This document shows, one piece after another, positions 6,329-60,772 of a stretch of 64,000 nt of DNA (positions within the stretch are counted from its first letter, which is position 1; the number at the start of each line of letters is the position of its first letter). The position numbers and the translations under genes were made by a program. Under the pieces are notes generated by a model. The model was not told the origin of the DNA and did not search any database. It saw only the letters and a program-made list of their open reading frames with translations. This DNA is from a virus, in the IMG/VR virus record IMGVR_UViG_3300032093_000037, positions 1 to 64,000 of that record; one strand, written 5' to 3'.

Positions 6329-6336
6329 TATTTATA
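6329..6336 (+). promoter_or_regulatory. TATTTATA candidate late promoter
   Basis: TATTTATA followed by an A-rich stretch, 20 nt upstream of the LamG-like fibre gene start at 6357. One of at least 19 such sites in front of mostly structural genes. Confidence 0.55.
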
Positions 6337-6356
6337 GAATAAAGATATATTTTACA

Positions 6357-7355
6357 ATGGCAACTGCAAGACCTTTTGCGTACAACACAGGATCGACAAT
6401 TTCGGGAACCATACAAGTTGGTAACTTGGCAGTTGGTTACCCGACTGCAGGATTTGCGTCAACAGGTCTTGAATGGTGGAATGGTCCTGATGAAGATTTG
6501 GGTTACGTTATTGCACAACAAGTTCCTGATGATAGTCAACCAACACCAGTTGTTGGGGTTACAGCATCTGTGGGATTCTTCAGAACTAACGGATTTGATG
6601 ATAATGAATTTGTAACTTTGGCAAATTTAGTGTCAAATGCGAACTATACTAATGCGTCAAATGCCGCTATAGGGTTAACTTCTAATGGGTATTGGACATC
6701 TTATGTTCCTAATTCAAATTTAAAATTACACTTAGATGCATCAGACCCAAATAGTTATTCAGGGGTAGGTACAACATGGTATGATTTGAGTAGTAGTGGT
6801 AATGATGTACAAATGAACAACTCAGGAAGTATTAATTGGGTTAATACGGGTGCTACATATTTTTCCACAGGATCTAATGGTTGGTTTTCAAACCCTTCAG
6901 GAATAGATTTGCCAACAGGTAACACACCTTATACTTTCATTATATGGGCTCAAATAGAATCAGGTTGGAATGCTAACGGTTTCATGAGTATTGGTCCATT
7001 TGGTATTGCTAATCAATCAAATGCATTTAGGACTGGTATAGAAAATCAATTTATAAACTATTGGTGGGCTAATGATTTAGCCGTAGTAGGGTCACTACCT
7101 TCAACCACCTCTTGGTTTAACGCTGTTGCTAAATTTGATGGAACAACAAGAAGTATATTAGTTAATGGTGTACTTTTAGGTTCTGACACTCCTGTAGGTC
7201 ATTACGTTAGCACAAGCGAATTACAAATTGCAAAAACATATACTAATGAGTATTTAAATGGAAATGTTGGTGAAGTGTTAATTTATGATATCGCATTATC
7301 CGATTCAGATATATTACAATATTATAATGATACCAAAACAAGGTTTGGTCTATAA
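6357..7355 (+). CDS. fibre or adhesin protein with a LamG-like domain
   Basis: A 332-residue protein. The N-terminal ~110 residues form a module rich in Gly, Thr and Ala (FAYNTG, then WWNGPDEDLGYVIA) that looks like a virion-attachment or capping domain. Residues about 122-332 look like a concanavalin/LamG jelly roll, with LKLHLDASDPNSY, WYDLSSSGND, TPYTFIIWAQIE, GTTRSILVNG and the usual closing GEVLIYDIALSDSDI. LamG domains bind carbohydrates or proteins, so this is probably a receptor-binding or virion-surface protein. The TATTTATA motif 20 nt upstream links it to late genes. It lies between two glycosyltransferase genes. Confidence 0.72.
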   Translation: MATARPFAYNTGSTISGTIQVGNLAVGYPTAGFASTGLEWWNGPDEDLGYVIAQQVPDDSQPTPVVGVTASVGFFRTNGFDDNEFVTLANLVSNANYTNASNAAIGLTSNGYWTSYVPNSNLKLHLDASDPNSYSGVGTTWYDLSSSGNDVQMNNSGSINWVNTGATYFSTGSNGWFSNPSGIDLPTGNTPYTFIIWAQIESGWNANGFMSIGPFGIANQSNAFRTGIENQFINYWWANDLAVVGSLPSTTSWFNAVAKFDGTTRSILVNGVLLGSDTPVGHYVSTSELQIAKTYTNEYLNGNVGEVLIYDIALSDSDILQYYNDTKTRFGL

Positions 7356-7398
7356 TTAATTTATATATTTTCATTTTTTTTGGTGTATATTTTTCTTG

Positions 7399-8334
7399 AT
7401 GAAAAACATTTGTATTGATATTACACAATGCCGAGCTTTAGGAGATACTTTATGTGCCACACCTGTAGTTAGAAAAATTAGTAAAACATATAATCAAAAA
7501 GTTTCTGTAATCTCCCATCATTCAGAAATATTTTCAAATTTACCTTATGTAGAAAATAATTATCAATATTCCCCCGAAACGTTTGATAAAATAAAAGACG
7601 AGTATGAAATGTTTCAAACTTTCGACGTTTTTTATAAGGAAAGTGGTATTTGTAACAAACATAATACAATGGACATCAGACAACTTCATGCCATTAGTTT
7701 AGGTTTTATGTTAACAAAAAAAGAAATGGAAATGGATTATATCACTGATGACAATGTCATCTTACCTGATTTACCATTAAAATATGTTTTAATTCATCCA
7801 GTTCAAAATTGGGATTCAAGAACTTGGCCGGCAAAAAGTTGGCAAATGTTAACACAACTTTTAAATGAAAAAGGTATTTCAGTAATTTCTGTGGGTAAAG
7901 ATTCTTCAGAAATGGGAGGTTCTAATGTTGATAAACCCGTATTTAATTTTCCAATAAAGCTTGGGTACAACTTAATGAATCAAACGACCTTAGATCAAAC
8001 TTGGCATTTGATTAACAATAGCTCTTGTTTTGTAACTATGGATTCAGGTCTTTTACATTTAGCAGGAACAACAGATGTTAACATAATTCAGTTGGGAAGT
8101 TCCATTGATCCTGAGTTCAGATCGCCCTATAGACAAGGTTCTCAGAATTATAAATACCACTATGTTAGAGGTGGTTGTGGATTAAATTGTGCTTCAGATA
8201 TGAAATATGGTGTTAGAGAATGGGGGACAATTCAAGGAATACCATCTTTAGTTGGGTGTTTAGAAAGAAAAAAAACTTTTGAGTGCCACCCATCTGTTTT
8301 ACAGGTATACCAAAAAATTTTGGAAATAGTGTAG
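7399..8334 (+). CDS. GT9-family (heptosyltransferase-like) glycosyltransferase
   Basis: A 311-residue protein starting at ATG 7399, preferred over the TTG one codon upstream. It has an N-terminal RALGDTLCATPVVRKI loop, central LIHPVQNWDSRTWPAKSW, and C-terminal CFVTMDSGLLHLAGTT followed by IIQLGSS, all GT9 hallmarks. A C-terminal tail with several cysteines (GGCGLNCASD, GCLE, FECH) recalls the cysteine-rich tail of the heptosyltransferase-like domain at 3383-6292. Donors in this family are ADP-heptose or related sugars. It sits between fibre-type genes and has no TATTTATA motif upstream, so it may be expressed at a different time from them. Confidence 0.78.
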   Translation: MKNICIDITQCRALGDTLCATPVVRKISKTYNQKVSVISHHSEIFSNLPYVENNYQYSPETFDKIKDEYEMFQTFDVFYKESGICNKHNTMDIRQLHAISLGFMLTKKEMEMDYITDDNVILPDLPLKYVLIHPVQNWDSRTWPAKSWQMLTQLLNEKGISVISVGKDSSEMGGSNVDKPVFNFPIKLGYNLMNQTTLDQTWHLINNSSCFVTMDSGLLHLAGTTDVNIIQLGSSIDPEFRSPYRQGSQNYKYHYVRGGCGLNCASDMKYGVREWGTIQGIPSLVGCLERKKTFECHPSVLQVYQKILEIV

Positions 8335-8339
8335 TTAGG

Positions 8340-8347
8340 TATTTATA
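8340..8347 (+). promoter_or_regulatory. TATTTATA candidate late promoter
   Basis: TATTTATA just after the preceding stop codon and 6 nt upstream of the start at 8354. The short gap would leave almost no 5' leader if the motif acts as a -10 element. Confidence 0.45.
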
Positions 8348-8353
8348 TTATAT

Positions 8354-8656
8354 ATGCCAAATTACGTAAATATAAATTCAATCGTAGGAACACCTCCATA
8401 CACAATATTTGTATGTGATCAGACTTTTACTTCTTGTTTTTTGGCTGCAGGACCAATTCCAATATCTACACCATATACTTTTATGGTACCACCACCATTA
8501 ACTAATGTGACAGACATTATTGTTAAAATAATTGATAGTAACGGATGTGATACTTGGTATCCACTATCTTGTGGGACTTACTACGGAAAGGAATTCGAAG
8601 ATTTTGCAATATTTTTGTTTCAGGACACAAATATATATTTATTTGAAGGTCAGTAA
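8354..8656 (+). CDS. small fibre-associated protein, Ig-like/SprB-repeat-like
   Basis: A 100-residue protein with a motif close to the site 6 nt upstream. The run GTPPYTIFVCDQ, a Pro-rich middle, then IIVKIIDSNGCDTWYPL resembles the PPYT...D.NGC pattern of SprB-type Ig-like repeats in flavobacterial surface proteins. The match is weak, covers a single copy and is unverified. It has four cysteines. Position between a GT9 gene and the collagen-like fibre gene suggests a small fibre or baseplate accessory protein. Function is otherwise unknown. Confidence 0.55.
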   Translation: MPNYVNINSIVGTPPYTIFVCDQTFTSCFLAAGPIPISTPYTFMVPPPLTNVTDIIVKIIDSNGCDTWYPLSCGTYYGKEFEDFAIFLFQDTNIYLFEGQ

Positions 8657-8664
8657 TATTTATT
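8657..8664 (+). promoter_or_regulatory. TATTTATT candidate late promoter
   Basis: TATTTATT overlapping the end of the upstream gene and only 3 nt before the start at 8668. If functional, the transcript would be close to leaderless. Confidence 0.4.
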
Positions 8665-8667
8665 AGT

Positions 8668-10002
8668 ATGCCAGTTTATAATAGACTCACAGATAGATCT
8701 CAAGTTTCAGCCGTCACAGTTAACGATATTTTTCACGTTGTAGTTACAGGTGATACAAGTCAGAGCCCACAAGGTTCTTCATATTTTGCCCCAATTAGTT
8801 TTTTACAACCAATATTAAGTGGTGCTAGTGGTTCGGCAGGTACTTCAGGTACAAATGGCACAAGTGGTACTAATGGGACTAGCGGGACTTTTGGTACTTC
8901 AGGTACAAATGGCACAAGTGGTACTAATGGTACTAGTGGGACTAACGGTACAAATGGTACTAATGGTACTAGTGGGACTAACGGTACAAATGGTACAAGC
9001 GGAACTAATGGTACAAATGGTACAAATGGTACAAGCGGAACTAATGGCACAAATGGTACTAATGGAACATCAGGTACCCATGGCACATCGGCAACTAACG
9101 GTACGTCAGGTACTAATGGTACAAGTGGAACAACTCCACCGGGTTTTACATCAGGTACTAATGGTACTAATGGTACAAACGGAACATCTGCAACTAATGG
9201 TACAAACGGAACTAATGGTACTTCAGGTACAAATGGGACATCAGGTACCAACGGAACATCAGGGACTAATGGAACTAATGGTACTTCAGGTACATCGCCA
9301 ACTTCAGCAACTACAGTCAGTACTATAGAAAACACAGGAAATACTAAATTTTATGTAACATTTGTTGATTCAAACAATACCGTTGCGCTAGCAGAAAGTT
9401 TATACACAAATGCAGGTATTAGCTTTAATCCAAGTACTGATATTCTTGAAGTTTCTTCCGCATACCAAAGTGGTGACGGAACAGTATCCGCACCATCACA
9501 TAGTTTTACTTCAGACCCAAATACGGGAATTTATAGGATAGGTACCGATAATATCGGTGTTGCCACTGGCGGTGTAAGACGAATGAGTGTTGATAGTAGT
9601 GGTACTTTATATGTTGGTAACGGGAATGAATCTAATGGATCAAACTTCATAATTCCTTTAGGTGGGTACGTCCAAACATCTAACGCAACTCCAACAACAT
9701 TAATAACTTTGGCAACATCAAACGATAATGTTTATACGGTAGAGGCGTTTGTTGCTGGTGCAACAACATCAGGGACTGTTGGTATTGGTGGAATTATAAG
9801 TGCAACTTTTTTAAATAACGGAGGAACTGTTAATCTTATTGGGGCAGTTCAAGGGTCAGTTCAAGAAAACATTATAGGGTCACCAACATTTACACTTCTT
9901 GGGTCGGGTAGTAATATTATTTTACAAGTTACAGGAGTTGCCTCAACTACTATTAATTGGTTCGGTAAAATTAAATATATCACAGGAAGTAGGTCAATTT
10001 AA
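8668..10002 (+). CDS. collagen-like fibre protein
   Basis: A 444-residue protein in three parts. Residues 1-51 are a short N-terminal virion-binding segment. Residues 52-210 are about 50 Gly-X-Y triplets, almost all GTN, GTS or GTx, with one break at about residue 155 (TTPPGF). The C-terminal ~230 residues contain DPNTGIYRIGTDNIGVATGG and VDSSGTLYVGNG, common in phage fibre head domains. Collagen-like stalks form triple helices that extend receptor-binding tips. The stalk has almost no proline, unlike animal collagen, and is extremely rich in Thr and Ser, which could be O-glycosylated. A putative GlcNAc-transferase gene follows directly. Confidence 0.85.
   Translation: MPVYNRLTDRSQVSAVTVNDIFHVVVTGDTSQSPQGSSYFAPISFLQPILSGASGSAGTSGTNGTSGTNGTSGTFGTSGTNGTSGTNGTSGTNGTNGTNGTSGTNGTNGTSGTNGTNGTNGTSGTNGTNGTNGTSGTHGTSATNGTSGTNGTSGTTPPGFTSGTNGTNGTNGTSATNGTNGTNGTSGTNGTSGTNGTSGTNGTNGTSGTSPTSATTVSTIENTGNTKFYVTFVDSNNTVALAESLYTNAGISFNPSTDILEVSSAYQSGDGTVSAPSHSFTSDPNTGIYRIGTDNIGVATGGVRRMSVDSSGTLYVGNGNESNGSNFIIPLGGYVQTSNATPTTLITLATSNDNVYTVEAFVAGATTSGTVGIGGIISATFLNNGGTVNLIGAVQGSVQENIIGSPTFTLLGSGSNIILQVTGVASTTINWFGKIKYITGSRSI
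8821..9297 (+). repeat. collagen-like triplet-coding repeat
   Basis: About 480 bp of degenerate 9-bp units encoding Gly-Thr-Asn/Gly-Thr-Ser. Synonymous codons vary between units (ggt/ggc/gga/ggg, act/acc/aca/acg), so the protein repeat is conserved more strictly than the DNA, consistent with selection on the protein. Confidence 0.9.
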
Positions 10003-10050
10003 CTTTCAGTTTTTCATTTATTTTAATCATTATTTTTTTATTTTTTCTGT

Positions 10051-12179: not shown

Positions 12180-12180
12180 G

Positions 12181-13848: not shown

Positions 13849-13854
13849 TCGAAG

Positions 13855-13862
13855 TATTTATA
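13855..13862 (+). promoter_or_regulatory. TATTTATA candidate late promoter
   Basis: TATTTATA followed by an A-rich stretch, 13 nt upstream of the structural gene at 13876. Confidence 0.55.
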
Positions 13863-13875
13863 GATAAAAGATTAG

Positions 13876-14571: not shown

Positions 14572-14574
14572 AAC

Positions 14575-14582
14575 TATTTATA
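14575..14582 (+). promoter_or_regulatory. TATTTATA candidate late promoter
   Basis: TATTTATA 12 nt upstream of the beta-helix protein start at 14595, followed by an A-rich run. Confidence 0.55.
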
Positions 14583-14594
14583 AAATAAAAAACT

Positions 14595-16634: not shown

Positions 16635-16638
16635 TGGA

Positions 16639-16646
16639 TATTTAAT
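16639..16646 (+). promoter_or_regulatory. TATTTAAT, variant of the candidate late promoter
   Basis: TATTTAAT 8 nt upstream of the start at 16655, differing from the common octamer in the last two bases. Confidence 0.35.
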
Positions 16647-16654
16647 AATAACAA

Positions 16655-17506: not shown

Positions 17507-17537
17507 TACTTATTGACGATAATAAATTAATCATTTA

Positions 17538-17545
17538 TATTTATT
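17538..17545 (+). promoter_or_regulatory. TATTTATT motif upstream of DNA polymerase (weak)
   Basis: TATTTATT at 56 nt upstream of the polymerase ATG, farther than at structural genes. It may be a chance match in AT-rich DNA. Confidence 0.2.
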
Positions 17546-17557
17546 TACGAAGGTAAA

Positions 17558-17575
17558 TGCCGACCTAATTCGGTA
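17558..17575 (+). promoter_or_regulatory. hairpin in the DNA polymerase leader (possible translational operator)
   Basis: A 6-bp stem, TGCCGA at 17558-17563 with TCGGTA at 17570-17575 (one G-T pair) and a CCTAAT loop, in the 95-nt leader of the polymerase gene. T4 and RB69 gp43 repress their own translation by binding a leader hairpin, so a similar role is possible. It ends 26 nt before the ATG, farther away than in T4. Confidence 0.35.
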
Positions 17576-17601
17576 GCTAATACACCAAAAGTAAAAAATA
17601 T

Positions 17602-20463
17602 ATGATATCACAAGAAGAAATTGAAAACTTCCTTGTGGGTAATGACCCCGAGGAATATATCGTATCGGTAGAGTACGATTACGTATCTGACAAAATCTAC
17701 AAAATCAAAGAAGTTCCTGGTAAAGGTAAACAGATCCAACGAGACACATTGATCTCATTTGCTTGGGTTGGTGATCTACGTGGTCAAAACTTTTACTCAT
17801 CATCAAAAGGTTTACAAAAAGAAGCCATGACCAAACATGGTATTATGATTGAGAAACTTAAAACTGAAGGTAATGATCGCTTAGAACGAGGGCTCACTTT
17901 TATGGTTAAGTCTATGAAAGGTTATCGAAATCTTATACAATTTTTTAGAGAAGGTGGTGTTGATCCTTGGGGTGAAAAAACAAAAGACCTCATCATGATA
18001 CTCCCTCCTGTTGAACAATATCTAATCTCAAAAGAGAAAAGATTGTTTAAAGGATTTGAAGAATACAACGACATCACGAGGATGGTATTCGACTTGGAGA
18101 CGACCTCACTTGAACCCAAGGATGGTCGTATCTTCATGATTGGAATCAAAACAAACAAAGGTTATAAAAAAGTTATCGAATGTGCAACACCTGATGATGA
18201 AAGAAGAGGACTTGTTGAGTTCTTCAACATCATTGATGATATCAAACCTTCAATCCTTTCAGGTTACAATTCATTTAACTTTGACTGGTATTGGATCTAT
18301 GAAAGATGTAAGGCACTAAACCTTGACATAAAAAAAGTTGCAAAATCACTAAATCCTGATAAATCAATTTCAATGAAGGAATCAATGTTGAAATTGGCGA
18401 ATGAAGTTGAGAAGTTTAATCAAACTCAAATGTGGGGTTATAATATTATTGATATTCTACATTCAGTTCGTAGGGCTCAGGCGATTAACTCGAACATCAA
18501 AGAGGCAGGTTTGAAGTACATTACCAAGTATATCGAAGCTGAAGCTCCTGATCGTGTATATGTTGACCATGATAAGATTGGATCTATGTATCGAGACAAA
18601 GAAGAATATTGGTTAAACATTGAAAATGGTAAGTATAAGAAAGTAGGTAACGATCCAAAAGTTGATGATGTATGTGGAAGACATTCTAAAGTATATATCA
18701 AAACAACGGGGGACGACATCATTGAGCGTTATCTCGACGATGACTTGGAAGAAACTCTTTTGGTCGATGAAGAATTTAATCAAGGTTCATTCTTGTTGGC
18801 ATCATTACTTCCAACAACGTATGAAAGAGTTTCAACAATGGGTACTGCTACATTATGGAAAATGTTGATGTTGGCTTGGTCTTACAAACATAACTTGGCA
18901 ATTCCTGCTAAGAATGACAAAGGGAACTTCGTAGGTGGACTTTCTCGATTGATCCGAACAGGATACTCAAAGAATGTGTTAAAACTTGACTACTCGTCTC
19001 TATATCCATCTATTCAGTTGGTACACGATGTATTTCCCGAGTGTGATGTTACAGGTGCAATGAAAGGGTTATTATCTTATTTCCGTAACACTCGTATCAA
19101 ATACAAACAACTCGCTGAGGAATATGCAAGTATTGATAAGAAAAAATCTACATCTTACGACCGTAAACAATTACCGATTAAGATCTTTATTAATTCGATG
19201 TTCGGTGCGTTATCTGCCCCTCAAGTATTCCATTGGGGTGATATGGACAAGGGTGAGATGATTACTTGTACAGGTCGTCAGTATCTTAGAATGATGATTA
19301 ACTTTTTTATGGATCGTGGTTATACACCTTTAGTGATGGACACGGACGGTATTAACTTCTCGGTTCCTGAAGGTGTGGAGACAAGAAAATATGTTGGTAA
19401 AGGTTTAAATTGGAAAGTAAAAGAGGGTAAAGAATACATCGGTGAAGAAGCTGATGTAATGGAGTTCAATGATCTTGCAATGAGAGGTGAAATGGCACTT
19501 GATACTGATGGACAATGGCCAGCTTGTATTAACTTAGCTCGTAAGAACTATGCTCTGATTACTGCAAAAGGTAAGATTAAACTTACGGGTAACTCAATCA
19601 AATCTAAAAAAATGCCGATATATATTGAAAAGTTTTTGGATAAAGGGATTAAGTTATTACTTGATGGTAAAGGACAAGAGTTTGTTGAGTGGTATTACGA
19701 ATATGTACAAAAGATATTTGATCAGAAAATTCCATTGATGGATATTGCAAATAAAGCAAAGATCAAACAAACAATTGAGGATTATATAGTTCGTAGTAAA
19801 CAAACAACTAAATCAGGAGCATTAATGTCTCGTCAAGCACACATGGAGTTGGCAATCAAAGACAAACTAAATGCTAATCTTGGTGAAGTTATCTTCTATG
19901 TAAACAACGGTACAAAGGCATCTCACGGTGATGTTCAGAAAGTTAATAAACCAAAGAAAGGTTGGTCACAAGAACATATTGACAATTACATGAGAGATTG
20001 GGGAACTACAATACCTGAGGATGTCGATTCAATAATTCAATTAAATTGTTATAGAATTGACCCGTTAGATCTTGAAAGTAACCCCACTATGACAGGAGAA
20101 TATAATATTCAAAGAGCAATTGCAACATTTAACAAACGTGTTGAACCTCTGTTAGTAGTTTTCAAACAAGAAGTTCGTAATGGGTTGTTGGTTAAAAACC
20201 CTGAAGAGAGACCATTCTTTACTAAAGTCCAATGTGAATTAATCAATGGACAACCTTTTGAAGAGGGAGACCAAGACAAATTAGAAGATGTAATGGAAAT
20301 CTCTGATGAGGAAATGTCTTTTTGGAATCGTGTTGGTGAAACGCCTTATCACATGTATAAAGATGCGGATCAAACTATGTGGAGATATGTACCTGAAAAA
20401 GAGTTAGTCCATTTTAATTCCGTCGGAGGAAAGGATGTACCAAACACCGTTGACATTTTGTAA
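17602..20463 (+). CDS. 43: family B DNA polymerase (T4 gp43-like)
   Basis: A 953-residue replicative polymerase with 3'-5' proofreading. Exonuclease motifs: Exo I MVFDLETTSLEP (about residue 163), Exo II SGYNSFNFDWYW (about 221), Exo III probably ERYLDDDLEE (about 375). Polymerase motifs: A KLDYSSLYPSIQ (about 462), B KIFINSMFGAL (about 527), C LVMDTDGINFS (about 579). All key acidic residues are present, so it should be active. T4 gp43 has 898 residues, so this is slightly long. The ATG at 17602 follows an A-rich leader with a possible operator hairpin. The last 60 nt overlap, antisense, the minus-strand gene at 20404-20751. The other replication genes are 30 kb away. Confidence 0.95.
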   Translation: MISQEEIENFLVGNDPEEYIVSVEYDYVSDKIYKIKEVPGKGKQIQRDTLISFAWVGDLRGQNFYSSSKGLQKEAMTKHGIMIEKLKTEGNDRLERGLTFMVKSMKGYRNLIQFFREGGVDPWGEKTKDLIMILPPVEQYLISKEKRLFKGFEEYNDITRMVFDLETTSLEPKDGRIFMIGIKTNKGYKKVIECATPDDERRGLVEFFNIIDDIKPSILSGYNSFNFDWYWIYERCKALNLDIKKVAKSLNPDKSISMKESMLKLANEVEKFNQTQMWGYNIIDILHSVRRAQAINSNIKEAGLKYITKYIEAEAPDRVYVDHDKIGSMYRDKEEYWLNIENGKYKKVGNDPKVDDVCGRHSKVYIKTTGDDIIERYLDDDLEETLLVDEEFNQGSFLLASLLPTTYERVSTMGTATLWKMLMLAWSYKHNLAIPAKNDKGNFVGGLSRLIRTGYSKNVLKLDYSSLYPSIQLVHDVFPECDVTGAMKGLLSYFRNTRIKYKQLAEEYASIDKKKSTSYDRKQLPIKIFINSMFGALSAPQVFHWGDMDKGEMITCTGRQYLRMMINFFMDRGYTPLVMDTDGINFSVPEGVETRKYVGKGLNWKVKEGKEYIGEEADVMEFNDLAMRGEMALDTDGQWPACINLARKNYALITAKGKIKLTGNSIKSKKMPIYIEKFLDKGIKLLLDGKGQEFVEWYYEYVQKIFDQKIPLMDIANKAKIKQTIEDYIVRSKQTTKSGALMSRQAHMELAIKDKLNANLGEVIFYVNNGTKASHGDVQKVNKPKKGWSQEHIDNYMRDWGTTIPEDVDSIIQLNCYRIDPLDLESNPTMTGEYNIQRAIATFNKRVEPLLVVFKQEVRNGLLVKNPEERPFFTKVQCELINGQPFEEGDQDKLEDVMEISDEEMSFWNRVGETPYHMYKDADQTMWRYVPEKELVHFNSVGGKDVPNTVDIL

Positions 20464-20755: not shown

Positions 20756-21883
20756 TTAAATTACATATATCTGACGAGGCATAGCTCTAAACTTAAGAGT
20801 TTTGTTTAAGTTTTCTGCTAGTAAAGCTTCTCTTTCCATAACTTTTTCAGGACGAAGTCTTGTTAATCTTCCTTCAGCTCCGATCAATTCTTCTATTAGT
20901 TTAGCCTTTTCATCTTTTCCTTCAGTACCTAATGTTGCATAATCCATAGTTAAGTCACCATCAGGAGTCTTTAAGTTACCACTAAATTTACCACGAACTC
21001 TTGCTAAAGTTTCTTTACAGTATGCTATAAACCATCTACGAACCCAAACTTGTGCAGGATTATTTAGTTTGTACCAACTTATCTTATTGAATGGTACATC
21101 TGAAGGTAAAAGAACAATATCAGGATTATCCGCCAAACATTTGTCTCTATCACCTTGTGAAGTATCATAATACCAATACCAAACTTGACCTTTTGCCAAC
21201 TCCGCATTACCAAAGTCAAATTTACCACCTGGTGTGTTTAAAAGGTGTAGTGCTTTTTTACCACCAGGAAGTGCAGTGATATAATAAGTCAAATCACCCG
21301 CAAATATTCTTCTTTGGATATTAACTTCTTGCATTCTTAATAATGTATCAAATGCTGGTGTTAAATAATAACTTCCTGCCATATTACCAATTTGTGCAAG
21401 CCCTCCACCACCACCAAGTCCAGTTCCATTACCAACACCCGCAAAACCACCCAAACCAAACATTAAGTTGTTTAATGTTGATGGGGTAAACCATAATACT
21501 TCATTTATCTCACGACCTGCAGGTATTTCATAAATCTGTTGGTTGGGTACTAACTGAATATAATCTTTTTTGATTTCCCAATCACCACCTGCTTGTAATC
21601 CAACTATTTTTGAATACGCATAGGTATAACGAGTTTCAAAGTCTAAACTTTTAGTTATGAAAGCTCTTGATAAAGATTGGGTATCTAAATTCAAATTATT
21701 TAATGTGGTCCATTGAGATTCAATTAACCAATCTTGGACATATTGAGAATAATCGTCAATTGAATATTCTAATAATGTGTCCATCATTTCGTCTTCCAAT
21801 TCCACAGATCTTAAAGGTGCACCTAATAAGTGTCTAACTTTTTGATAGAATTGACTTCTTTCTGGTTCGTCGATTATTGCCAT
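20756..21883 (-). CDS. 13: neck protein, gp13-like
   Basis: A 375-residue protein. The N-terminus (FYQKVRHLLGAPLRSVELED, then LEYSIDDYSQYVQDW) matches the opening pattern of T4-type neck protein gp13 and its cyanophage relatives (RLGAP...VEL.D). Near the C-terminus, CKETLARVRGKFSG followed by DYATLGTEGKDEKAKLIEEL also fits. A Gly-rich loop (residues about 145-170) is an insertion; T4 gp13 has 309 residues. gp13 joins the filled head to the tail with gp14. A TATTTATA motif lies 12 nt upstream. It is encoded on the strand opposite to the gp14- and gp15-like genes. Confidence 0.6.
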   Translation of the reverse strand: MAIIDEPERSQFYQKVRHLLGAPLRSVELEDEMMDTLLEYSIDDYSQYVQDWLIESQWTTLNNLNLDTQSLSRAFITKSLDFETRYTYAYSKIVGLQAGGDWEIKKDYIQLVPNQQIYEIPAGREINEVLWFTPSTLNNLMFGLGGFAGVGNGTGLGGGGGLAQIGNMAGSYYLTPAFDTLLRMQEVNIQRRIFAGDLTYYITALPGGKKALHLLNTPGGKFDFGNAELAKGQVWYWYYDTSQGDRDKCLADNPDIVLLPSDVPFNKISWYKLNNPAQVWVRRWFIAYCKETLARVRGKFSGNLKTPDGDLTMDYATLGTEGKDEKAKLIEELIGAEGRLTRLRPEKVMEREALLAENLNKTLKFRAMPRQIYVI

Positions 21884-21895: not shown

Positions 21896-21903
21896 TATAA
21901 ATA
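21896..21903 (-). promoter_or_regulatory. TATTTATA candidate late promoter (minus strand)
   Basis: Reads TATTTATA on the minus strand, 12 nt upstream of the gp13-like gene start at 21883, with A-rich DNA after it. Shows the motif keeps its orientation relative to the gene. Confidence 0.55.
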
Positions 21904-21923: not shown

Positions 21924-24119
21924 TTAGATGGGGCAAATGATCTTTTCTCTATCTTTAGATTTGACAGTCAAAGTGGTAGACTCTAAGGTGTTTTTGTCTT
22001 TGAAAAAGAATCCATTAATTTTGTCGTATTCAGGTTTTATTCTAAATCTTATTGATAATCTTTTTTCATCACAACCTCGTTGACCTTTGTTGGACCAATA
22101 TAAATCTATATATTCAATAGGAACAATTAAGTCACCTTCATAAATTATACCTGACATTTTGCTTTTAACCTTATTTAAGTACTCCTCAGCTGAAGGTTTA
22201 CTATTTAACCAAGTGTATAATTTATCTATCAATTCATTATATAATTTTATGTATATTGGTTTTTCACTTGATAATGAAGATTGTTTAAATATAGAAAAGA
22301 ACTCAGACAAATAACTATCAATGAATGGGTCCATTTTTTTAACCTCAAAAAGTGAATTAGTAGGAAATATTGTATTACCATCCTCATCTTTTAGTTCTTG
22401 TTTAGTTATTAAATCCGCTTTGATATAATAACTACCACTTTTGAATGACTTAGATAAACAAGAAGTTATTTGAAAAAAAGTATAGTTTAAACTTTCAGTA
22501 CCTGAATGGATTTTTTTCAAAAGGTCAATTAATGTTTCTTTTGCATCATCAGAACACTTATAATTCAATTGTAGTTTTGTTTGGTTTTTTTCAAAATAAT
22601 CACCAACAAATCTATCTTCATATTTACTGTGTTCTTTTTGTCTTGCATATGCTAACAATCCTTCAATATCATTTGGTATTGTTGTTACGTACCTTTGTTT
22701 ATTTAGTATTTTTTTAACTTGGTCATCCTCAAATTCTTTATCAACAATGAAGTCCGATACTAATTCTAAAAAGTTTACAGTTCTATTTGTGTCTTGGAGA
22801 GCCAATTGAATTATCACAGGAAATGTACCGACATTTTTTTTGCCAAAAAATTGGTCTAGTATAAAAATTGATCTTTCTAATTCATGAATCAAATATTGAT
22901 CTTCTAAACCATCTCTAAAATTTTTTAATTGACAATATGGTGATTTTTCAGATTTTGATTGTACACATAAATAATCTATTTTAGAACTTCTTCTAAGAGC
23001 AATTTCATTTATTTCTTCAGATTCATTAAGTTTTTTTTTTGATGTTCTACTCACAAATAAATCATTAACAAATTCCCAATTAACAACATCCCAAAACTTT
23101 TTAATATATTCATCACGTTTGTTTTGATATTTCAAATAGTAAGCGTGTTCCCAAACGTCCAAACCTAACAGAGGATACCCACCTTTTTTAACTATGTTCA
23201 TCAATGGATTATCTTGATTTGGTGTAGACATAATCTTCAAATTACCTTCACTGTTAAGATACAACCAAGCCCATCCTGAACCAAAACGATCCTGAGCGGC
23301 TTTGTTAAACTCATCCTTCATTTTTTTTATGTTACCAAAATCTTTTTTAATTTTTTTCAAAATTTCTCCTCTTGGGAGTTGTTTTTTTGGGGACAACATC
23401 TTCCAAAATAATGCATGATTAAATGCTCCACCAGCATTATTTCTAACCTTATTGTCAAATTTACTTATAGTTCTTACAATATCCTCTAACTCCAAATCAC
23501 CATCAATGTCTTTGATTGCTTTATTCAATTTATCAACATATCCTTTGTAGTGTTTATTGTAATGAATATTCATAGTTTTTGAATCTATAAATCTATTCAA
23601 AGAAGAATATGAGTAAGGTAACTTTTCAATACCAATTGATTTCATTTCAGAAATCAAATTTTTTTTGATTAATTGTTTTTCGTTTAATAAAATTTGTTCA
23701 GATAGAAGACTAACTTTTCCTTCGATTCCTTTATGTTCATACATCAGTTCTTCAAGTTCAGGATATTTTTTTTCAAATTTTTTAACAATCTGTCCCGCAA
23801 ATGCATTTGCTTCGTCTTCATTAATACCACCAATGTTAGGTCCGTGTTCTCTACCAAGAATTGTCATTTGATATTCATGAACCCATTCATGGGCTAATGT
23901 TCTCATGATGTCACGATTTAATCTTCCTTTAGCAAGAACTTTAATTAGGTGATCACCTCTTCTACTACCTGTAGACATCTCACCTTTTCTACCATTTAAA
24001 AACATAATTTTTAAATCATTTTTAAGTGGGTATTCTTCTTGTAGTAAAGAAATAAACTTTTTAACAAAGTCTTTTCGATTTTTAATATCGGGATTTTCGT
24101 ATTTGATAGAAACTTTCAT
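21924..24119 (-). CDS. fusion of HExxH metalloprotease, Mn-type superoxide dismutase and an unknown C-terminal domain
   Basis: A 731-residue protein. Residues 1 to about 125 look like a small zinc metalloprotease: HEWVH at 77-81 and a downstream EDEANAFA glutamate. Residues about 165-355 are a complete Fe/Mn superoxide dismutase. All four metal ligands are there (H186, H235, D321, H325), with the active-site H190 and Y194, and GSGWAWL and DVWEHAYY. Gly230-231 and Gln302 match the Mn-type arrangement. Residues about 365-731 match nothing I recognise. A TATTTATC motif 4 nt upstream suggests late expression, so it may be a virion protein. Possible roles: detoxifying superoxide and cutting an envelope or virion protein. 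Confidence 0.82.
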   Translation of the reverse strand: MKVSIKYENPDIKNRKDFVKKFISLLQEEYPLKNDLKIMFLNGRKGEMSTGSRRGDHLIKVLAKGRLNRDIMRTLAHEWVHEYQMTILGREHGPNIGGINEDEANAFAGQIVKKFEKKYPELEELMYEHKGIEGKVSLLSEQILLNEKQLIKKNLISEMKSIGIEKLPYSYSSLNRFIDSKTMNIHYNKHYKGYVDKLNKAIKDIDGDLELEDIVRTISKFDNKVRNNAGGAFNHALFWKMLSPKKQLPRGEILKKIKKDFGNIKKMKDEFNKAAQDRFGSGWAWLYLNSEGNLKIMSTPNQDNPLMNIVKKGGYPLLGLDVWEHAYYLKYQNKRDEYIKKFWDVVNWEFVNDLFVSRTSKKKLNESEEINEIALRRSSKIDYLCVQSKSEKSPYCQLKNFRDGLEDQYLIHELERSIFILDQFFGKKNVGTFPVIIQLALQDTNRTVNFLELVSDFIVDKEFEDDQVKKILNKQRYVTTIPNDIEGLLAYARQKEHSKYEDRFVGDYFEKNQTKLQLNYKCSDDAKETLIDLLKKIHSGTESLNYTFFQITSCLSKSFKSGSYYIKADLITKQELKDEDGNTIFPTNSLFEVKKMDPFIDSYLSEFFSIFKQSSLSSEKPIYIKLYNELIDKLYTWLNSKPSAEEYLNKVKSKMSGIIYEGDLIVPIEYIDLYWSNKGQRGCDEKRLSIRFRIKPEYDKINGFFFKDKNTLESTTLTVKSKDREKIICPI

Positions 24120-24123: not shown

Positions 24124-24131
24124 GATAAATA
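24124..24131 (-). promoter_or_regulatory. TATTTATC candidate late promoter (minus strand)
   Basis: Reads TATTTATC on the minus strand, 4 nt upstream of the protease-superoxide dismutase start at 24119. Confidence 0.4.
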
Positions 24132-25949: not shown

Positions 25950-25957
25950 TATTTATC
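25950..25957 (+). promoter_or_regulatory. TATTTATC candidate late promoter
   Basis: TATTTATC 14 nt upstream of the neck gene at 25972, followed by an A-rich stretch. Confidence 0.5.
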
Positions 25958-27726: not shown

Positions 27727-27734
27727 TATAAATA
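27727..27734 (-). promoter_or_regulatory. TATTTATA candidate late promoter (minus strand)
   Basis: Reads TATTTATA on the minus strand, 41 nt upstream of the small ribbon-helix-helix-like gene at 27685. It lies back to back with the plus-strand copy at 27771. Confidence 0.45.
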
Positions 27735-27770: not shown

Positions 27771-27778
27771 TATTTATA
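27771..27778 (+). promoter_or_regulatory. TATTTATA candidate late promoter of the tail sheath gene
   Basis: TATTTATA 31 nt upstream of the sheath ATG at 27810, followed by an A-rich leader. Together with 27727-27734 it forms a divergent pair. Confidence 0.6.
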
Positions 27779-31216: not shown

Positions 31217-31224
31217 TATTTATT
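31217..31224 (+). promoter_or_regulatory. TATTTATT candidate late promoter
   Basis: TATTTATT between the sheath terminator and the HAD-like gene, only 3 nt before its ATG at 31228. Placement right after a terminator supports a fresh transcription start. Confidence 0.45.
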
Positions 31225-32126: not shown

Positions 32127-32134
32127 TATTTATA
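32127..32134 (+). promoter_or_regulatory. TATTTATA candidate late promoter of the tail tube gene
   Basis: TATTTATA 32 nt upstream of the tube ATG at 32167, followed by an A-rich leader very like that of the sheath gene. Confidence 0.6.
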
Positions 32135-33646: not shown

Positions 33647-33654
33647 TATTTATG
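33647..33654 (+). promoter_or_regulatory. TATTTATG candidate late promoter
   Basis: TATTTATG 18 nt upstream of the tape-measure-like gene at 33673. Confidence 0.5.
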
Positions 33655-35546: not shown

Positions 35547-35554
35547 TATTTATA
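35547..35554 (+). promoter_or_regulatory. TATTTATA candidate late promoter
   Basis: TATTTATA 10 nt upstream of the 1704-residue baseplate gene at 35565, followed by an A-rich run. Confidence 0.58.
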
Positions 35555-48430: not shown

Positions 48431-48438
48431 TATTTATA
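48431..48438 (+). promoter_or_regulatory. TATTTATA candidate late promoter
   Basis: TATTTATA overlapping the end of the giant baseplate gene and 12 nt upstream of the small gene at 48451. Confidence 0.55.
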
Positions 48439-49434: not shown

Positions 49435-49463
49435 TTGACTATAACTTTTTATACACTTATAAT
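49435..49463 (+). promoter_or_regulatory. sigma70-like promoter of the gp32-like gene
   Basis: TTGACT at 49435-49440 and TATAAT at 49458-49463, separated by exactly 17 bp. It is placed between a terminator and the gp32-like gene (start 49495), with a leader of about 25 nt. It lacks the TATTTATA motif, so it is probably read by host RNA polymerase early. A Bacteroidota-type TTTG and TAnnTTT reading also overlaps it. Confidence 0.6.
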
Positions 49464-50410: not shown

Positions 50411-50413
50411 TGT

Positions 50414-50428
50414 CTATATTTTATATAG
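50414..50428. promoter_or_regulatory. palindrome upstream of uvsX
   Basis: CTATAT-TTT-ATATAG, a perfect 6+6 inverted repeat 13 nt upstream of the UvsX ATG and right after the gp32 terminator. It could be part of a promoter or operator for UvsX, or an AT-rich coincidence. Confidence 0.25.
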
Positions 50429-50441
50429 TAACACAAAAATT

Positions 50442-51449: not shown

Positions 51450-51450
51450 T

Positions 51451-52014: not shown

Positions 52015-52035
52015 AAATCACTTAAAAAACAAAAA

Positions 52036-53046: not shown

Positions 53047-53055
53047 AAAAAACAA

Positions 53056-53505: not shown

Positions 53506-53508
53506 TAC

Positions 53509-53516
53509 TATTTATT
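53509..53516 (+). promoter_or_regulatory. TATTTATT motif before the helicase gene
   Basis: TATTTATT 23 nt upstream of the helicase ATG at 53540, at the start of an intergenic leader. It is one of few motif copies in front of a replication gene, so it may be chance. Confidence 0.35.
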
Positions 53517-53523
53517 TTTACTA

Positions 53524-53530
53524 AAGGAGA
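53524..53530 (+). promoter_or_regulatory. strong Shine-Dalgarno site of the helicase gene
   Basis: AAGGAGA lies 9 nt upstream of the helicase ATG at 53540. Most other genes here have only A-rich leaders, so this classical site stands out and supports the 53540 start. Confidence 0.65.
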
Positions 53531-53539
53531 GAAAACTAT

Positions 53540-54922
53540 ATGGCGACAGGTAAAAATTTTGAGTATTTAGGTAATACGTTTCAGTTACAATTACTTAATC
53601 AAATCATTGTGGATAAAGACTTTTCACATTCAATTATCGATGTGATCGAGAATAATTATTTTGAGAACAAGTACTTCAAAATCATCATTCAAATGATTAG
53701 AGAGTATTACACGAAATATGACCACACACCGTCGTTTGATACGTTAGAACAAATCACAAAATCTGAATTACAACAAGAAATTGCATCCAAGATTGTTATG
53801 GATACAATCAAGAAAATTAAAGATGCACCTATCGATGGCGTAGCTTTTGTACAAGAAAAAGCGTTGAAGTTCTGTAAACAACAAGAACTACAAAAGGTAA
53901 TGGGTAAGGCTCAAAAGATCATTGATGGTGGTGAGTTTGAGAGTTACGACACACTTGAAGAAATGGTTAAAACGGCTCTTCAGGTTGGTGCAAAAGACAC
54001 TACTATGTTAGATGTGTTTTCCAACCTTGATCAAGTTCTTGAGGATGATTACAGACACCCAATCCCAATGGGAATACCTGGAATCGATAGATTATTAAAA
54101 GGAGGTTTGGCAAAAGGGGAAATTGGTGTTATCTTAGCACCTACAGGTGTCGGTAAGTCAACTATATTAACCAAAATGGCTAATCACGCTTTTAACTTAG
54201 GATTTAATGTACTTCAGATCTTTTTTGAGGACAACCCAAAGGTTATCCAAAGAAAGCATTTCACATTATGGACGAAAGTTCATCCTGACGATTTGTCAGA
54301 GAAAAAAGATGAGGTTATGAAGAGAGTTAGGGAAATTGAGGAATCAATGCCAAATAAATTGATAATGAAAAAGTTACCATCTGATACTATGACGATGTTA
54401 CAAATTAAAAATCAAATTAGAAAAATGGTATCTGATGGGATCAAAGTAGATATGATTGTTTTAGATTATATCGATTGTATTGTTCCTGACAAAAATTTAG
54501 GTGATGAATGGAAGAGTGAAGGGTCAGTGATGAGAGCATTTGAAGCAATGTGTCACGAAATGAATATTGTGGGTTGGACAGCAACTCAAGGTAACAGATC
54601 TTCAATATCTTCCGAAGTTGTTACAACAGATCAAATGGGTGGATCAATTAAAAAGGCTCAAGTTGGTCACGTTATTATATCAGTTGCAAAGACATTACAA
54701 CAAAAAGAAATGAAACTAGCAACAATTGCAATCACAAAATCACGTATTGGTGATGATGGTGTTGTATTTGAAAACTGTAAGTTTGATAACGCAATGATTG
54801 ATATAGATACTGAAAGCTCAATGACGTTCTTAGGTCTTGAAGAACAAAAAGAAGAAAGACAAAGACAAAGAGTTAAGGAACTCTTAGAAAAGAGAAAACA
54901 AAGAGAAACACAATCAAATTAA
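53540..54922 (+). CDS. 41: replicative DNA helicase (DnaB/gp41-like)
   Basis: A 460-residue helicase of the DnaB/RecA-like type. The N-terminal ~150 residues are the helicase-associated helical domain. The ATPase core has [18 protein letters not shown] (Walker A, about 190-205), [32 protein letters not shown] (Walker B) and the late [12 protein letters not shown] and [20 protein letters not shown] segments. T4 gp41 has 475 residues. It unwinds DNA ahead of the polymerase on the lagging strand. No separate primase (gp61) is in the window. It precedes nrdB and nrdA. Confidence 0.92.
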
Positions 54923-54944
54923 CAAAATAAGTAAATTTATAAAA

Positions 54945-55892: not shown

Positions 55893-55902
55893 TTTTTGGA
55901 AT

Positions 55903-58332: not shown

Positions 58333-58339
58333 AATTAAG

Positions 58340-58369
58340 AATCACTACTTCGGTAGTGATTTTTTTTTT
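58340..58369 (+). terminator. intrinsic terminator after nrdA
   Basis: A 9-bp perfect stem (AATCACTAC with GTAGTGATT) closed by a stable TTCG tetraloop and followed by a long T-run. It separates the replication unit from the baseplate wedge genes. Confidence 0.92.
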
Positions 58370-58390
58370 ACTTAAAAATTCTATAACTTA

Positions 58391-58398
58391 TATTTATA
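58391..58398 (+). promoter_or_regulatory. TATTTATA candidate late promoter
   Basis: TATTTATA between the nrdA terminator and the gp25-like gene, 6 nt before its ATG. A motif right after a terminator supports promoter function. Confidence 0.52.
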
Positions 58399-58404
58399 TG
58401 TGAT

Positions 58405-58863
58405 ATGGCAAATGGTATTACATACGGTATAGGGTTTCCCTTCGTTGATTCGTTTACAGGTAGATATTTGGATGTTACTGAAACTACCGAAGCTGAAATT
58501 AGAGGTAATCTAGTTCACTTACTTTTAACAAGAAAAGGAAGTAGATATTTTTTACCTGATTTTGGGACAAGATTATATGAATATATATTCGAACCACTTG
58601 ATGGTCCTACGTTTTCAGATATTGAGGCGGAGATAAGGGACACCATTAGAACATTTATGCCAAACTTACAAGTTACAAATATTGTTGTTGAACCAGCATC
58701 TGCAGGACTTGAAGATAAAGGTTATACGGTTAACCAATATGGTGAACGAGAATTTAAAGTTACAAACATTGCCAATTTAGAACACACGGCAAGAATCAAA
58801 ATTGATTATAAAATCACTGATTCGGCATTTGAATCACAAGATTTTGTTATATTAAATATTTAA
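58405..58863 (+). CDS. 25: baseplate wedge protein gp25-like
   Basis: A 152-residue protein of the gp25/W family. IRGNLVHLLLTRKGSRYFLP, then FGTRLYEYIFEPLDG and FSDIEAEIRDTIRTFMP show the core; TARIKIDYKITD closes it. T4 gp25 has 132 residues. It is part of the wedge that triggers sheath contraction. The gene directly after it encodes gp6, as in cyanophages. Confidence 0.93.
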   Translation: MANGITYGIGFPFVDSFTGRYLDVTETTEAEIRGNLVHLLLTRKGSRYFLPDFGTRLYEYIFEPLDGPTFSDIEAEIRDTIRTFMPNLQVTNIVVEPASAGLEDKGYTVNQYGEREFKVTNIANLEHTARIKIDYKITDSAFESQDFVILNI

Positions 58864-58869
58864 TGATAT

Positions 58870-60711
58870 ATGGCTGAAAAAAAGATATCCTATACGGTCC
58901 GAGATTTTCAAGGAGTAAGATCTGAGTTAATAAATTTCACAAGAACTTACTATCCTGATTTAGTTCAGAACTTTAATGATGCTGGGATTTTTTCAGTTAT
59001 GTTGGATCTTAACGCCGCGGTAACTGATAACTTGAATTATCAAATTGATAGAAGTATCCAAGAAACTGTATTACAATTTGCACAACAAAAGAATTCGGTT
59101 TATAATATTGCAAGAACTTATGGTCTTAAAGTACCTGGTCAAAGACCATCGGTTGCTTTAGTTGATTTCTCAATAACAGTTCCTGCTTTTGGTGATAGAG
59201 AAGACATAAGATATTGTGGAATCTTAAGAAGAGGATCTTTAGTTAATGGTGCTGGACAACCTTTTGAAACTGTCTATGACATTGATTTTGCATCACCAAT
59301 TAATGCTGAAGGATCACCAAACAGATTAAAAATACCAAATTTTGATTCAAGTGGTAAATTGATAAATTACACCATTGTTAAAAGAGAAGTTGTTGTAAAT
59401 GGAGTTACAAAAGTGTTCAAAAGAACAATTACCGCAAATGATGTAAAACCATATTTAGAGTTATTTCTCCCTGAAAAAAATATATTAGGAATTACAAGTG
59501 TGTTGTTGAAACCAGGAACACAATATTCAACAGTACCAAATCCGCAAGATTTTTTAAGTTTGGGGCCTGAAAGATGGTTTGAGGTTGATGCATTAGTTCA
59601 AGATAGAGTTTTTGTTGAAGACCCAACTAAAGTTTCAGATCAACCAGGTATTAAAGTTGGAAGATACATCACAACCTCTAATAAATTTATTTCTGAATAC
59701 ACACCACAAGGTTTCTGTAAAATGACTTTTGGTGGTGGTAACATTTCGGCCGAAGAACAACTAAGAGAATTCGCTAGAGATGGTAAAGGATTTGATTTAA
59801 GTAGATATACTAACAATTACGCTATGGGTGCGGCTTTAACACCAAATACAACACTATTCGTTCAATACAGAATTGGGGGTGGATTAGCTAGTAATGTAGG
59901 TCTAAATACAATCAATCAAATTGGTACAGTTTCATTCGCAGTTAATGGACCTTCTGATTCTGTAAATAGAAGTGTTATTAATAGTCTTCAGTGTAATAAC
60001 GTAACTGCCGCAATTGGTGGTGCTAATTTACCAACAACAGAAGATGTTAGAAATATGGTTTCATTTAACTTCGCAGCTCAGAACAGAGCAGTAACTGTTA
60101 ATGATTATAATTCATTAATAAGAACAATGCCGTCACAATATGGCGCACCAGCAAAAGTTGCAATCACTGAAGAAAATAATAAAATTAGAATCAAAATGTT
60201 GTCATACGACACTAATGGTAGTTTATCTAATGTTGTTTCAAATACTTTAAAACAAAACATCGCAAATTATTTATCTAACTTCAGAATGATCAATGATTAT
60301 ATTTCCGTTGAAGCGGCAGAAACAATTGATTTGGCTGTTACTGTTGATGTTGTATTAGATAATAGTCAAAACCAAGGTGCAATTATTTCAAAAACAATTG
60401 AAATTGTTAGTAACTTCTTTAATCCATTAGTTATACAGTTAGGTCAAAATGTAAACATATCTGAACTTAGAAGACTAATACAAGCAGAAAACGGTATAGT
60501 TAGTATTTCTGACATTTCATTCTTTAATCAAGTTGGAGGTCAATACTCTTCGGCACAAACATCTATGCCTTATTCGGATCCTGTAACAAGACAAATACAA
60601 CCAACGGCAGATACTTTGTTTGCAACTCCAACACAAATCTATCAAATTCGATTCCCAAACAAAGATATTAATGTAAGAGTATTGAACTTGAAATCCGTTA
60701 ATTTCTCATAG
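58870..60711 (+). CDS. 6: baseplate wedge protein gp6-like (baseplate J family)
   Basis: A 613-residue protein of the gp6/J type (T4 gp6 has 660 residues). Residues 1-100 contain ISYTVRDFQGVRSELINFTR, GIFSVMLDLNAAVTDNLNYQ, IDRSIQETVLQFAQQKNSVY and ARTYGLKVPGQRPS. FNFAAQNRAVTVNDYNSLIR (about 400) is the conserved J-family signature. TIDLAVTVDVVLDNSQN starts the C-terminal domain. gp6 dimers hold the wedges together in a ring. It starts 6 nt after gp25 and is probably translated from the same message. Confidence 0.93.
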   Translation: MAEKKISYTVRDFQGVRSELINFTRTYYPDLVQNFNDAGIFSVMLDLNAAVTDNLNYQIDRSIQETVLQFAQQKNSVYNIARTYGLKVPGQRPSVALVDFSITVPAFGDREDIRYCGILRRGSLVNGAGQPFETVYDIDFASPINAEGSPNRLKIPNFDSSGKLINYTIVKREVVVNGVTKVFKRTITANDVKPYLELFLPEKNILGITSVLLKPGTQYSTVPNPQDFLSLGPERWFEVDALVQDRVFVEDPTKVSDQPGIKVGRYITTSNKFISEYTPQGFCKMTFGGGNISAEEQLREFARDGKGFDLSRYTNNYAMGAALTPNTTLFVQYRIGGGLASNVGLNTINQIGTVSFAVNGPSDSVNRSVINSLQCNNVTAAIGGANLPTTEDVRNMVSFNFAAQNRAVTVNDYNSLIRTMPSQYGAPAKVAITEENNKIRIKMLSYDTNGSLSNVVSNTLKQNIANYLSNFRMINDYISVEAAETIDLAVTVDVVLDNSQNQGAIISKTIEIVSNFFNPLVIQLGQNVNISELRRLIQAENGIVSISDISFFNQVGGQYSSAQTSMPYSDPVTRQIQPTADTLFATPTQIYQIRFPNKDINVRVLNLKSVNFS

Positions 60712-60764
60712 GGATTTATTTTTTTTCAAAAGGGACTATTTTTCTATGAAAATAGGAAATAAAC

Positions 60765-60772
60765 TATTTATG
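60765..60772 (+). promoter_or_regulatory. TATTTATG candidate late promoter
   Basis: TATTTATG in the gap after gp6, 17 nt upstream of the ATG at 60790, followed by an A-rich stretch. Confidence 0.5.

Follow-up and report, generated by a model that had tools for sequence, protein, structure and literature searches.

The heptamer TATTTAT recurs a short distance ahead of start codons in the first 64,000 bases (the window) of the 106,888-base virus record IMGVR_UViG_3300032093_000037 (GC content 32%), and we interpret it as a -10-like promoter core for late genes, functioning in the manner of phage T4 late promoters and read by a gp55-like sigma factor. From the sequences compared here, we put the probability of this interpretation at roughly 0.75. 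An initial annotation of the window had already proposed a candidate late promoter, and that proposal is the best supported of the readings considered below, owing to an A in the register of a start base, distinct classes of distance to the start codon, position at the heads of transcription units, conservation, and co-occurrence with gp55-like sigma factors in independent phages. The record is probably a fragment, given that it has no gp23-family match and that related records reach about 270-305 kb.

Placement and conservation of TATTTAT

Over the window as a whole TATTTAT occurs at chance (37 matches, 42.6 expected); its unusual feature is position ahead of starts, not abundance. The enrichment claimed in the initial annotation holds against shuffled DNA: the motif is found in 17 of the 44 regions of 50 nucleotides (nt) upstream of window ATG genes, compared with a mean of 2.1 (standard deviation 1.4, maximum 7) in 300 dinucleotide shuffles, and its reverse complement ATAAATA is near background in the same regions (4 versus 2.6 expected). 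In the whole record TATTTAT occupies 24 of 86 upstream regions versus 3.4 in shuffles, and TATAAAT five, also versus 3.4, which is near background. With a slightly different gene set (25 of 90), TATTTAT ranks first among all upstream 7-mers of the record, with Markov expectations of 3.1, 4.5 and 8.0 for orders 1, 2 and 3. Genes were called from ATG starts only with a simple overlap rule, and over-extended open reading frames (ORFs) conceal some motifs (e.g., at the orthologs of genes 31228 and 58405 in relative G004).

All 15 plus-strand and all three minus-strand copies in the initial annotation were found at their given positions (the minus-strand 7-mers being 21897-21903, 24125-24131 and 27728-27734), and the TATTTAAT variant at 16639 is visible in the upstream sequence. 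The minus-strand copy at 27728 is present but doubtful as a promoter (Table 1). Two further copies were missing from that list, one at 8636 and one at 426, the latter lying 11 nt before a small ORF (gene 437) and within the preceding ORF; the single ortholog of gene 437 has no motif.

Through the sigma factor gene at record positions 95049-95849 we identified 155 related IMG/VR stretches, and eight whole relatives (G003, G004, G005, G008, G009, G010, G013, and G015) carry this RpoD-like sigma factor at 79-94% identity. The position-specific enrichment extends to these relatives: TATTTAT heads the list of upstream 7-mers in 9/9 records (22-93 genes versus 3.8-17.8 expected), and ATAAATA stands at 0.8-1.7 times expectation. 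Because the nine records are related, their counts depend on one another; 265 of the 307 sites are left after clustering at 80% identity. Both presence and spacing of the motif are kept for many genes (Table 1), and less well kept for genes 8354, 14595, and 437. Ahead of gene 82685 the motif lies at 13-14 nt in 8/8 relatives, and this record reads TATTTAC there. Only 20 of the 307 motif genes follow the previous gene by less than 15 nt, compared with 507 of 854 other genes, which indicates that motif genes head transcription units.

The statement that the motif precedes structural genes stood for the sheath, tube, baseplate wedge, fiber-like, and adaptor-like genes, and the gp23 gene of G005 has TATTTAT 48 nt upstream. 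The motif is not exclusive to such genes, since the copy at 53509 heads a DnaB-like helicase gene; among structural genes, the baseplate hub lacks it, as does gp23 in two of three phages. As initially annotated for gp32 and uvsX, no TATTTAT occurs within 48 nt upstream of gp32, uvsX or the DNA polymerase gene in any of the eight genomes.

Predicted start-base register and leader classes

We define d as the distance from the first T of TATTTAT to the A of ATG. In the nine records d is bimodal, with no sites at 8-10, 92 at 11-14, 14 at 15-17, and 150 at 18-25, besides seven at 5-7. Among sites with d of 18-25, 140 of 145 have an A at +12 counted from the first T, whereas 173 of 549 genic copies of TATTTAT do (32%); after clustering at 80% identity the figure is 122 of 127 sites. 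This A stays at +12 in 93-100% of sites while d shifts from 20 to 25. Being in register with the motif and not with ATG, it resembles an initiating A rather than a ribosome-linked signal, and it likely marks the start base; the box would then precede the start by about one turn of the helix. The DNA at +8 to +14 after the motif is A-rich, the base after the core is G in only 5% of sites, and no upstream position is conserved beyond weak AT blocks. At 15 nt ahead of the motif GC content drops to 7%, close to where Flavobacterium promoters have their AT-rich -28 block.

At sites with d of 11-14 the A of ATG itself falls at +11 to +14, so the messages are predicted to be leaderless or nearly so. 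The start codons of this class are likely right, because several of its proteins align from residue 1 across relatives (MANGITYG, MAYIIKNTSG, and MPTQIT, with small changes). The copies 3-6 nt from ATG, taken initially to argue for leaderless messages or a translational role instead of a promoter, fit leaderless transcripts of the same promoter and give no argument for the translational role. Similar classes appear in 80 loci around gp55-like genes, at least three of which come from records used elsewhere in this study (G009, G010, and G012): of 163 distinct sites, 49 lie at d 11-14, none at 15-17, and 90 at 18-25. Locus by locus, upstream TATTTAT exceeds ATAAATA in 45, equals it in 16, and falls below it in 19.

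In the mechanism we propose, host RNA polymerase with a phage gp55-like late sigma factor would open the DNA at a single AT-only box, without a -35 element, and start at an A about 11-13 bases past the first T, the box spanning about -12 to -6. Two start designs would follow from its placement: a leaderless one, in which transcription would begin at the A of ATG or 1-2 nt from it, and one with a leader that is short and A-rich, about 8-13 nt in length. The sheath, tube, and helicase genes would have longer leaders of conserved length. It is conceivable, and we regard it as doubtful, that the gp55 lineage switched to an inverted core and that start placement serves as a translation switch, late genes having long kept either a leaderless start or an 8-13-nt A-rich leader; one late sigma factor would then support two translation modes in hosts without Shine-Dalgarno signals. 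In this reading, slippage at the A-run might even add A residues to the 5' end.

Sigma factors and competing interpretations

A gp55-like protein of about 247 amino acids was found by protein search in six of 20 records with the RpoD-like sigma factor and in at least 520 IMG/VR stretches. The family phrog_234 likewise matches six of the 20, one differing from the protein-search set. These finds overturned an early reading of "no gp55", in which a T4 gp55 query had matched one of six records (E 0.026). A 78-amino-acid fragment of the protein matches phrog_234, "late sigma transcription factor" (E 1.4e-4), the gp55-like profile finds gp55 as its best match in T4 (E 0.002; next 0.051), and the best PDB sequence match is also T4 gp55 (E 0.12). 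In a structural model (mean predicted local distance difference test score, pLDDT, 72.5), residues 26-129 align with sigmaE region 2 bound to -10 DNA (Z 9.7, root-mean-square deviation 2.6, 93 residues), and the modeled fold is sigma-2-like. The C-terminal helical part was not established as a sigma-4 domain: when this part is modeled by itself, none of its matches is strong (best Z 4.9). Whole-chain alignments do span this part, at large root-mean-square deviation. The gp55-like gene (L122:5962-6702 and relatives) lies close behind a gene that reads as glycosyltransferase-like, and the gp55-like gene so has no visible promoter of its own. A phrog_234 match is also present in Lak-B8.

Conversely, the RpoD-like sigma factor occurs in two of 18 gp55-like records. 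As most records look like fragments, the presence of one sigma factor without the other is uninformative inside the group, and because both belong to the same large genomes there, phages outside the group were compared. Flavobacterium phage immuto (examined minus its final 410 bases) and Microcystis phage Mel-JY01 encode gp55-like proteins (E 1.5e-18 and 5e-14, respectively), annotated as hypothetical: KNV73_gp118 in immuto (NC_055915 78174-78872) and a protein near 158761 of PP395634 in Mel-JY01. TATTTAT is found in 33 of 211 upstream regions in immuto and 21 of 229 in Mel-JY01, each versus 6.6 expected. The 33 immuto sites precede genes for the terminase, portal gp20, sheath, tube, hub, tape measure, tail spike, a PhoH-like protein, and others; the capsid gene is not among them. 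Four immuto sites have d of 11-12 and one of 9, and at d of 16 or more A occupies +11 in 24 of 28 sites and +12 in 22 of 28, versus 35-41% of 71 controls. In Mel-JY01 most sites lie 20-60 nt from ATG and are followed by Shine-Dalgarno-like leaders. Tenacibaculum phage PTm1, with at most a short and weak gp55-like frame (E 0.002-0.006), shows no TATTTAT enrichment (8 of 282 versus 8.4). As a check of the method, T4 gave TATAAAT in 25 of 244 regions versus 5.9 and TATTTAT in 6 versus 4.3, TATAAAT ranking first with 50-nt and fourth with 60-nt regions.

The RpoD-like sigma factor (L010:13049-13846) was initially assumed to read TATTTAT. It has Pfam regions 1.2, 2, and 4, without a Pfam match to region 3, is conserved in the 155 stretches, and is encoded in 9/9 motif-rich records, the present one included. 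We dropped this assumption because immuto and Mel-JY01 are enriched in the motif without a match to this protein (nothing by tblastn at E 1; profile searches at best E 0.085 and 0.024); together with the lack of enrichment in PTm1, this points to the gp55-like sigma factor. Moreover, the RpoD-like protein has region 4, yet the TATTTAT sites have no -35 consensus, and a two-box element that is not enriched in immuto, TTGA-N19-TATA, suits it better. A late promoter read by the RpoD-like sigma factor therefore seems unlikely, and it is still the strongest of the alternatives. In a plasmid collection this protein is closest to Bacteroidota RpoD, the seven top matches listed all being from Bacteroidota (41.8-43.0% identity). 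Its gene shares an operon with a DUF6576 gene, behind a conserved host-type promoter, TATATTTG or TATCTTTG. A scan of genome contigs for a host gave a single match, a 3.3-kb contig (L154) in an Alphaproteobacteria metagenome-assembled genome with a sigma factor 67% identical to it; this is probably a misbinned phage contig.

Still less probable is that TATTTAT is a relaxed form of TAnnTTTG read by the host primary sigma factor. Passages of PMC6847099 give the Bacteroidota primary promoter as -33 TTTG/-7 TAnnTTTG with AT-rich blocks near -18 and -28, and the promoters of F. johnsoniae as T-12 A-11 nn T-8 T-7 T-6 G-5 with 4-5 nt to the start. T-12, A-11, T-8, and T-6 of TATTTAT match this -7 element, with similar AT-rich blocks and start spacing, but the near-invariant T-7 and G-5 are absent. 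The regions upstream of motif genes are poor in TAnnTTTG (8 forward, 25 reverse), whereas this element lies 21-33 nt before the gene that precedes the RpoD-like sigma gene in 74 of 80 loci, against an expectation of 0.046 per locus, and is kept exactly in 31 of the 33 upstream clusters of these loci; TATTTAT is found within 60 nt of the RpoD-like sigma gene in none of the 80. PTm1, for its part, infects Tenacibaculum yet is not enriched in TATTTAT.

A signal for translation or RNA processing, such as an AU-rich leader element, would account for the nearness of TATTTAT to ATG and for the A-rich sequence after it; in Flavobacterium, according to passages of PMC6847099, initiation is helped by adenines ahead of the start codon. 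We consider this very improbable, because the distance to ATG spans 30 nt in classes, the near-invariant A tracks the motif and not ATG, and few motif genes follow closely on another gene. That TATTTAT merely reflects AT-rich intergenic DNA, as the low GC content and the chance-level count in the window could suggest, has a negligible probability and is already contradicted by strand and position biases far above dinucleotide shuffles and by conservation across relatives.

Several observations weigh against a T4-like late promoter read by a gp55-like sigma factor. As to placement, no exact TATTTAT occurs within the 80 or 60 nt examined upstream of the gp23 genes of G009 and immuto, and the motif also heads the replicative helicase gene, at sites (d 30-31) that mostly lack A at +12. 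A few sites fall at short distances, namely the seven at d 5-7 in the nine records and four of the 163 at d 7-10 in the gp55-like loci. In the latter loci A stands at +12 in 74 of 90 sites and is more frequent at +13 and +14, and the excess of TATTTAT is modest (296 of 1788 genes versus 226 for ATAAATA). Mel-JY01 gives no clear start-base signal (A at +12 in 13 of 25 sites, control 29%), and LR756508 (L294-L303), whose gp55-like protein is 41% identical to that of immuto, is motif-free, with 0 upstream TATTTAT versus 2.1 expected (200 kb, standard code). Foldseek returned nothing at E <=0.001 for the gp55-like model (best 0.036), and for an all-helical model a Z of about 10 carries limited weight, since helical folds reach such values more easily. 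The dedicated sigma factor suggested by the initial annotation does accompany the motif in independent phages, and gp55-like genes are found in relatives, but this partial record has none. Searches for gp33 (PF16805) and gp45 (PF02916), in which T4 scored over cut-off, gave no match above it in eight group records (three of them without a gp55-like region), immuto, Mel-JY01 or PTm1; a sub-cut-off PF16805 match was seen in G011 (E 0.006). The modest excess in the 80 loci, the Mel-JY01 result, and the weak Foldseek match qualify details and leave the main tests standing.

Candidate promoter classes and comparison with known systems

Besides TATTTAT and TAnnTTTG, the group has the two-box element TTGA-N19-TATA, found 34 times versus 1.2 expected among 232 unit-head genes without either other motif. 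It precedes gp32 and the DNA polymerase gene in 8/8 genomes and the primase gene in 7/9 (one of the seven also has a TATTTAT call), and in every one of the nine records it exceeds the mean for other spacings. It is not enriched in immuto (1 versus 0.6) or T4 (1 versus 0.8), and is within the range of other spacings in PTm1 (5 versus 1.8, maximum 6) and Mel-JY01 (5 versus 2.8, maximum 6). Over the whole window TAnnTTTG and TTGA-N19-TATA are at chance, and they stand out by place and conservation only. TTGA-N19-TATA has the canonical sigma-70 spacing, though the likely hosts use TAnnTTTG. The three classes would thus comprise a host-type TAnnTTTG before the RpoD-like sigma operon, TTGA-N19-TATA before replication genes, and TATTTAT before late genes, from which we infer a time order of host sigma, RpoD-like sigma, and gp55-like sigma factor.

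Table 1. Candidate promoter elements of the window (d in nt; d values under relatives refer to orthologs)
Element	Position (strand)	Downstream gene	d	Relatives and remarks
TATTTAT	6329..6335 (+)	6357, 332 amino acids, weak virion-protein match	28	2 orthologs, d 21 and 19
TATTTAT	8340..8346 (+)	8354, 100 amino acids	14	5 orthologs: d 21, 21, 28, two without
TATTTAT	8657..8663 (+)	8668, tail-fiber-like	11	predicted leaderless; 3 orthologs, d 14, 15, 15
TATTTAT	13855..13861 (+)	13876, 231 amino acids	21	d 21 in 3/3 relatives with ortholog
TATTTAT	14575..14581 (+)	14595, 679 amino acids	20	absent in 2 orthologs (38% identity)
TATTTAAT variant	16639..16646 (+)	16655		exact TATTTAT at d 20-21 in 5/5 orthologs
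TTGA-N19-TATA	17513..17539 (+)	17602, DNA polymerase
TATTTAT	21897..21903 (-)	20756-21883, head-tail-adaptor-like	20	8/8 genomes, d 18-23
TATTTAT	24125..24131 (-)	21924-24119, 731 amino acids	12	predicted leaderless; exactly 12 in 7/8 genomes
TATTTAT	25950..25956 (+)	25972, 170 amino acids	22	7/8 genomes
TATTTAT	27728..27734 (-)	53-amino-acid ORF only	49	doubtful
TATTTAT	27771..27777 (+)	27810, tail sheath	39	8/8 genomes, d 39-44
TATTTAT	31217..31223 (+)	31228, 276 amino acids	11	predicted leaderless; 6/8 genomes
TATTTAT	32127..32133 (+)	32167, tail tube	40	8/8 genomes, d 40-45
TATTTAT	33647..33653 (+)	33673, 614 amino acids	26	8/8 genomes, d 17-28
TATTTAT	35547..35553 (+)	35565, 1704 amino acids	18	8/8 genomes, d 18-23
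TATTTAT	48431..48437 (+)	48451, 74 amino acids	20	8/8 genomes, d 19-24
TTGA-N19-TATA	49435..49461 (+)	49495, gp32-like single-stranded DNA-binding protein
TATTTAT	53509..53515 (+)	53540, DnaB-like helicase	31	d 30-31 in 8/8 genomes having the gene
TATTTAT	58391..58397 (+)	58405, baseplate wedge	14	predicted leaderless or 2-nt leader; 7/8 genomes, ORF call over-extended in the eighth
TATTTAT	60765..60771 (+)	60790, 1863 amino acids	25	9/9 genomes, d 22-25

Two leaders have features of their own. That of the helicase gene (53509-53540) contains AAAGGAG here and a Shine-Dalgarno-like GGAG in four of eight genomes, which is unusual if the hosts lack Shine-Dalgarno signals; the product of this gene had wrongly been taken for the major capsid protein. 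In the DNA polymerase leader (window 17536-17602) a block TATTTACGAAGGTAAATG(C/T)CGACC...TCG is present in six of eight genomes and is perhaps a hairpin or a short upstream ORF.

The T4 late promoter TATAAATA is read by gp55 with gp33 and gp45. TATTTAT resembles it in being a single AT-only box without a -35 element, with AT-rich DNA downstream, placed before structural genes, in a group that has a gp55-related sigma factor. Its core, however, is the reverse complement, and by this core it falls outside TATAAATA. For that reason the initial annotation called it a different element; the inversion stands, but TATTTAT is better viewed as a changed version of the T4-type promoter than as an unrelated element. 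In T4, TATAAAT sites lie mostly 21-48 nt from ATG, with one at 12, and form no clear leaderless class. The gp55-like protein has 247 amino acids, with an extra helical C-terminal part, compared with 185 for T4 gp55. Passages of PMC2988020 describe the T4 late promoter as a single 8-bp TATA box about one turn before the start, lacking a -35 element and followed by AT-rich DNA.

A T4-type late system in another host group is that of cyanophages S-PM2 and Syn9, with the late promoter NATAAATA (passages of PMC2984593); the cyanophage core retains the T4 orientation, and the Microcystis phage Mel-JY01 is enriched in TATTTAT instead. With the Bacteroidota promoter TATTTAT shares T-12, A-11, and upstream AT blocks, and it differs at two near-invariant core positions; among predicted host leaders, 87% are longer than 10 nt. 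Minimal and RpoD-like sigma factors have already been described for group 2 T4-like jumbo phages in PMC7824862, the passages of which give no late promoter sequence for them. Among open-licence PMC papers we found none in which TATTTAT is described as a late promoter of phages; new here are the register of the predicted start site, the two classes of leaderless and short-leader genes, the conservation, and the association with a diverged gp55-like sigma factor.

A large and mostly uncultured group of freshwater phages, distant kin of T4 (155 stretches with the RpoD-like and at least 520 with the gp55-like sigma factor), would thereby gain a readable late regulon, in which genes without any database match could be called late from sequence. 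The group would also offer a naturally occurring example in which the box of a T4-type late sigma factor has seemingly changed, testable in the cultured phage immuto, and the split between leaderless and short-leader genes makes the fate of leaderless messages in hosts without Shine-Dalgarno signals directly testable. As phage transcripts are said often to be leaderless (passages of PMC5312081), leaderless messages alone are not new. Compared with other leaderless phage transcripts, the distinguishing feature here is the presence of two leader classes on one promoter core, kept by gene.

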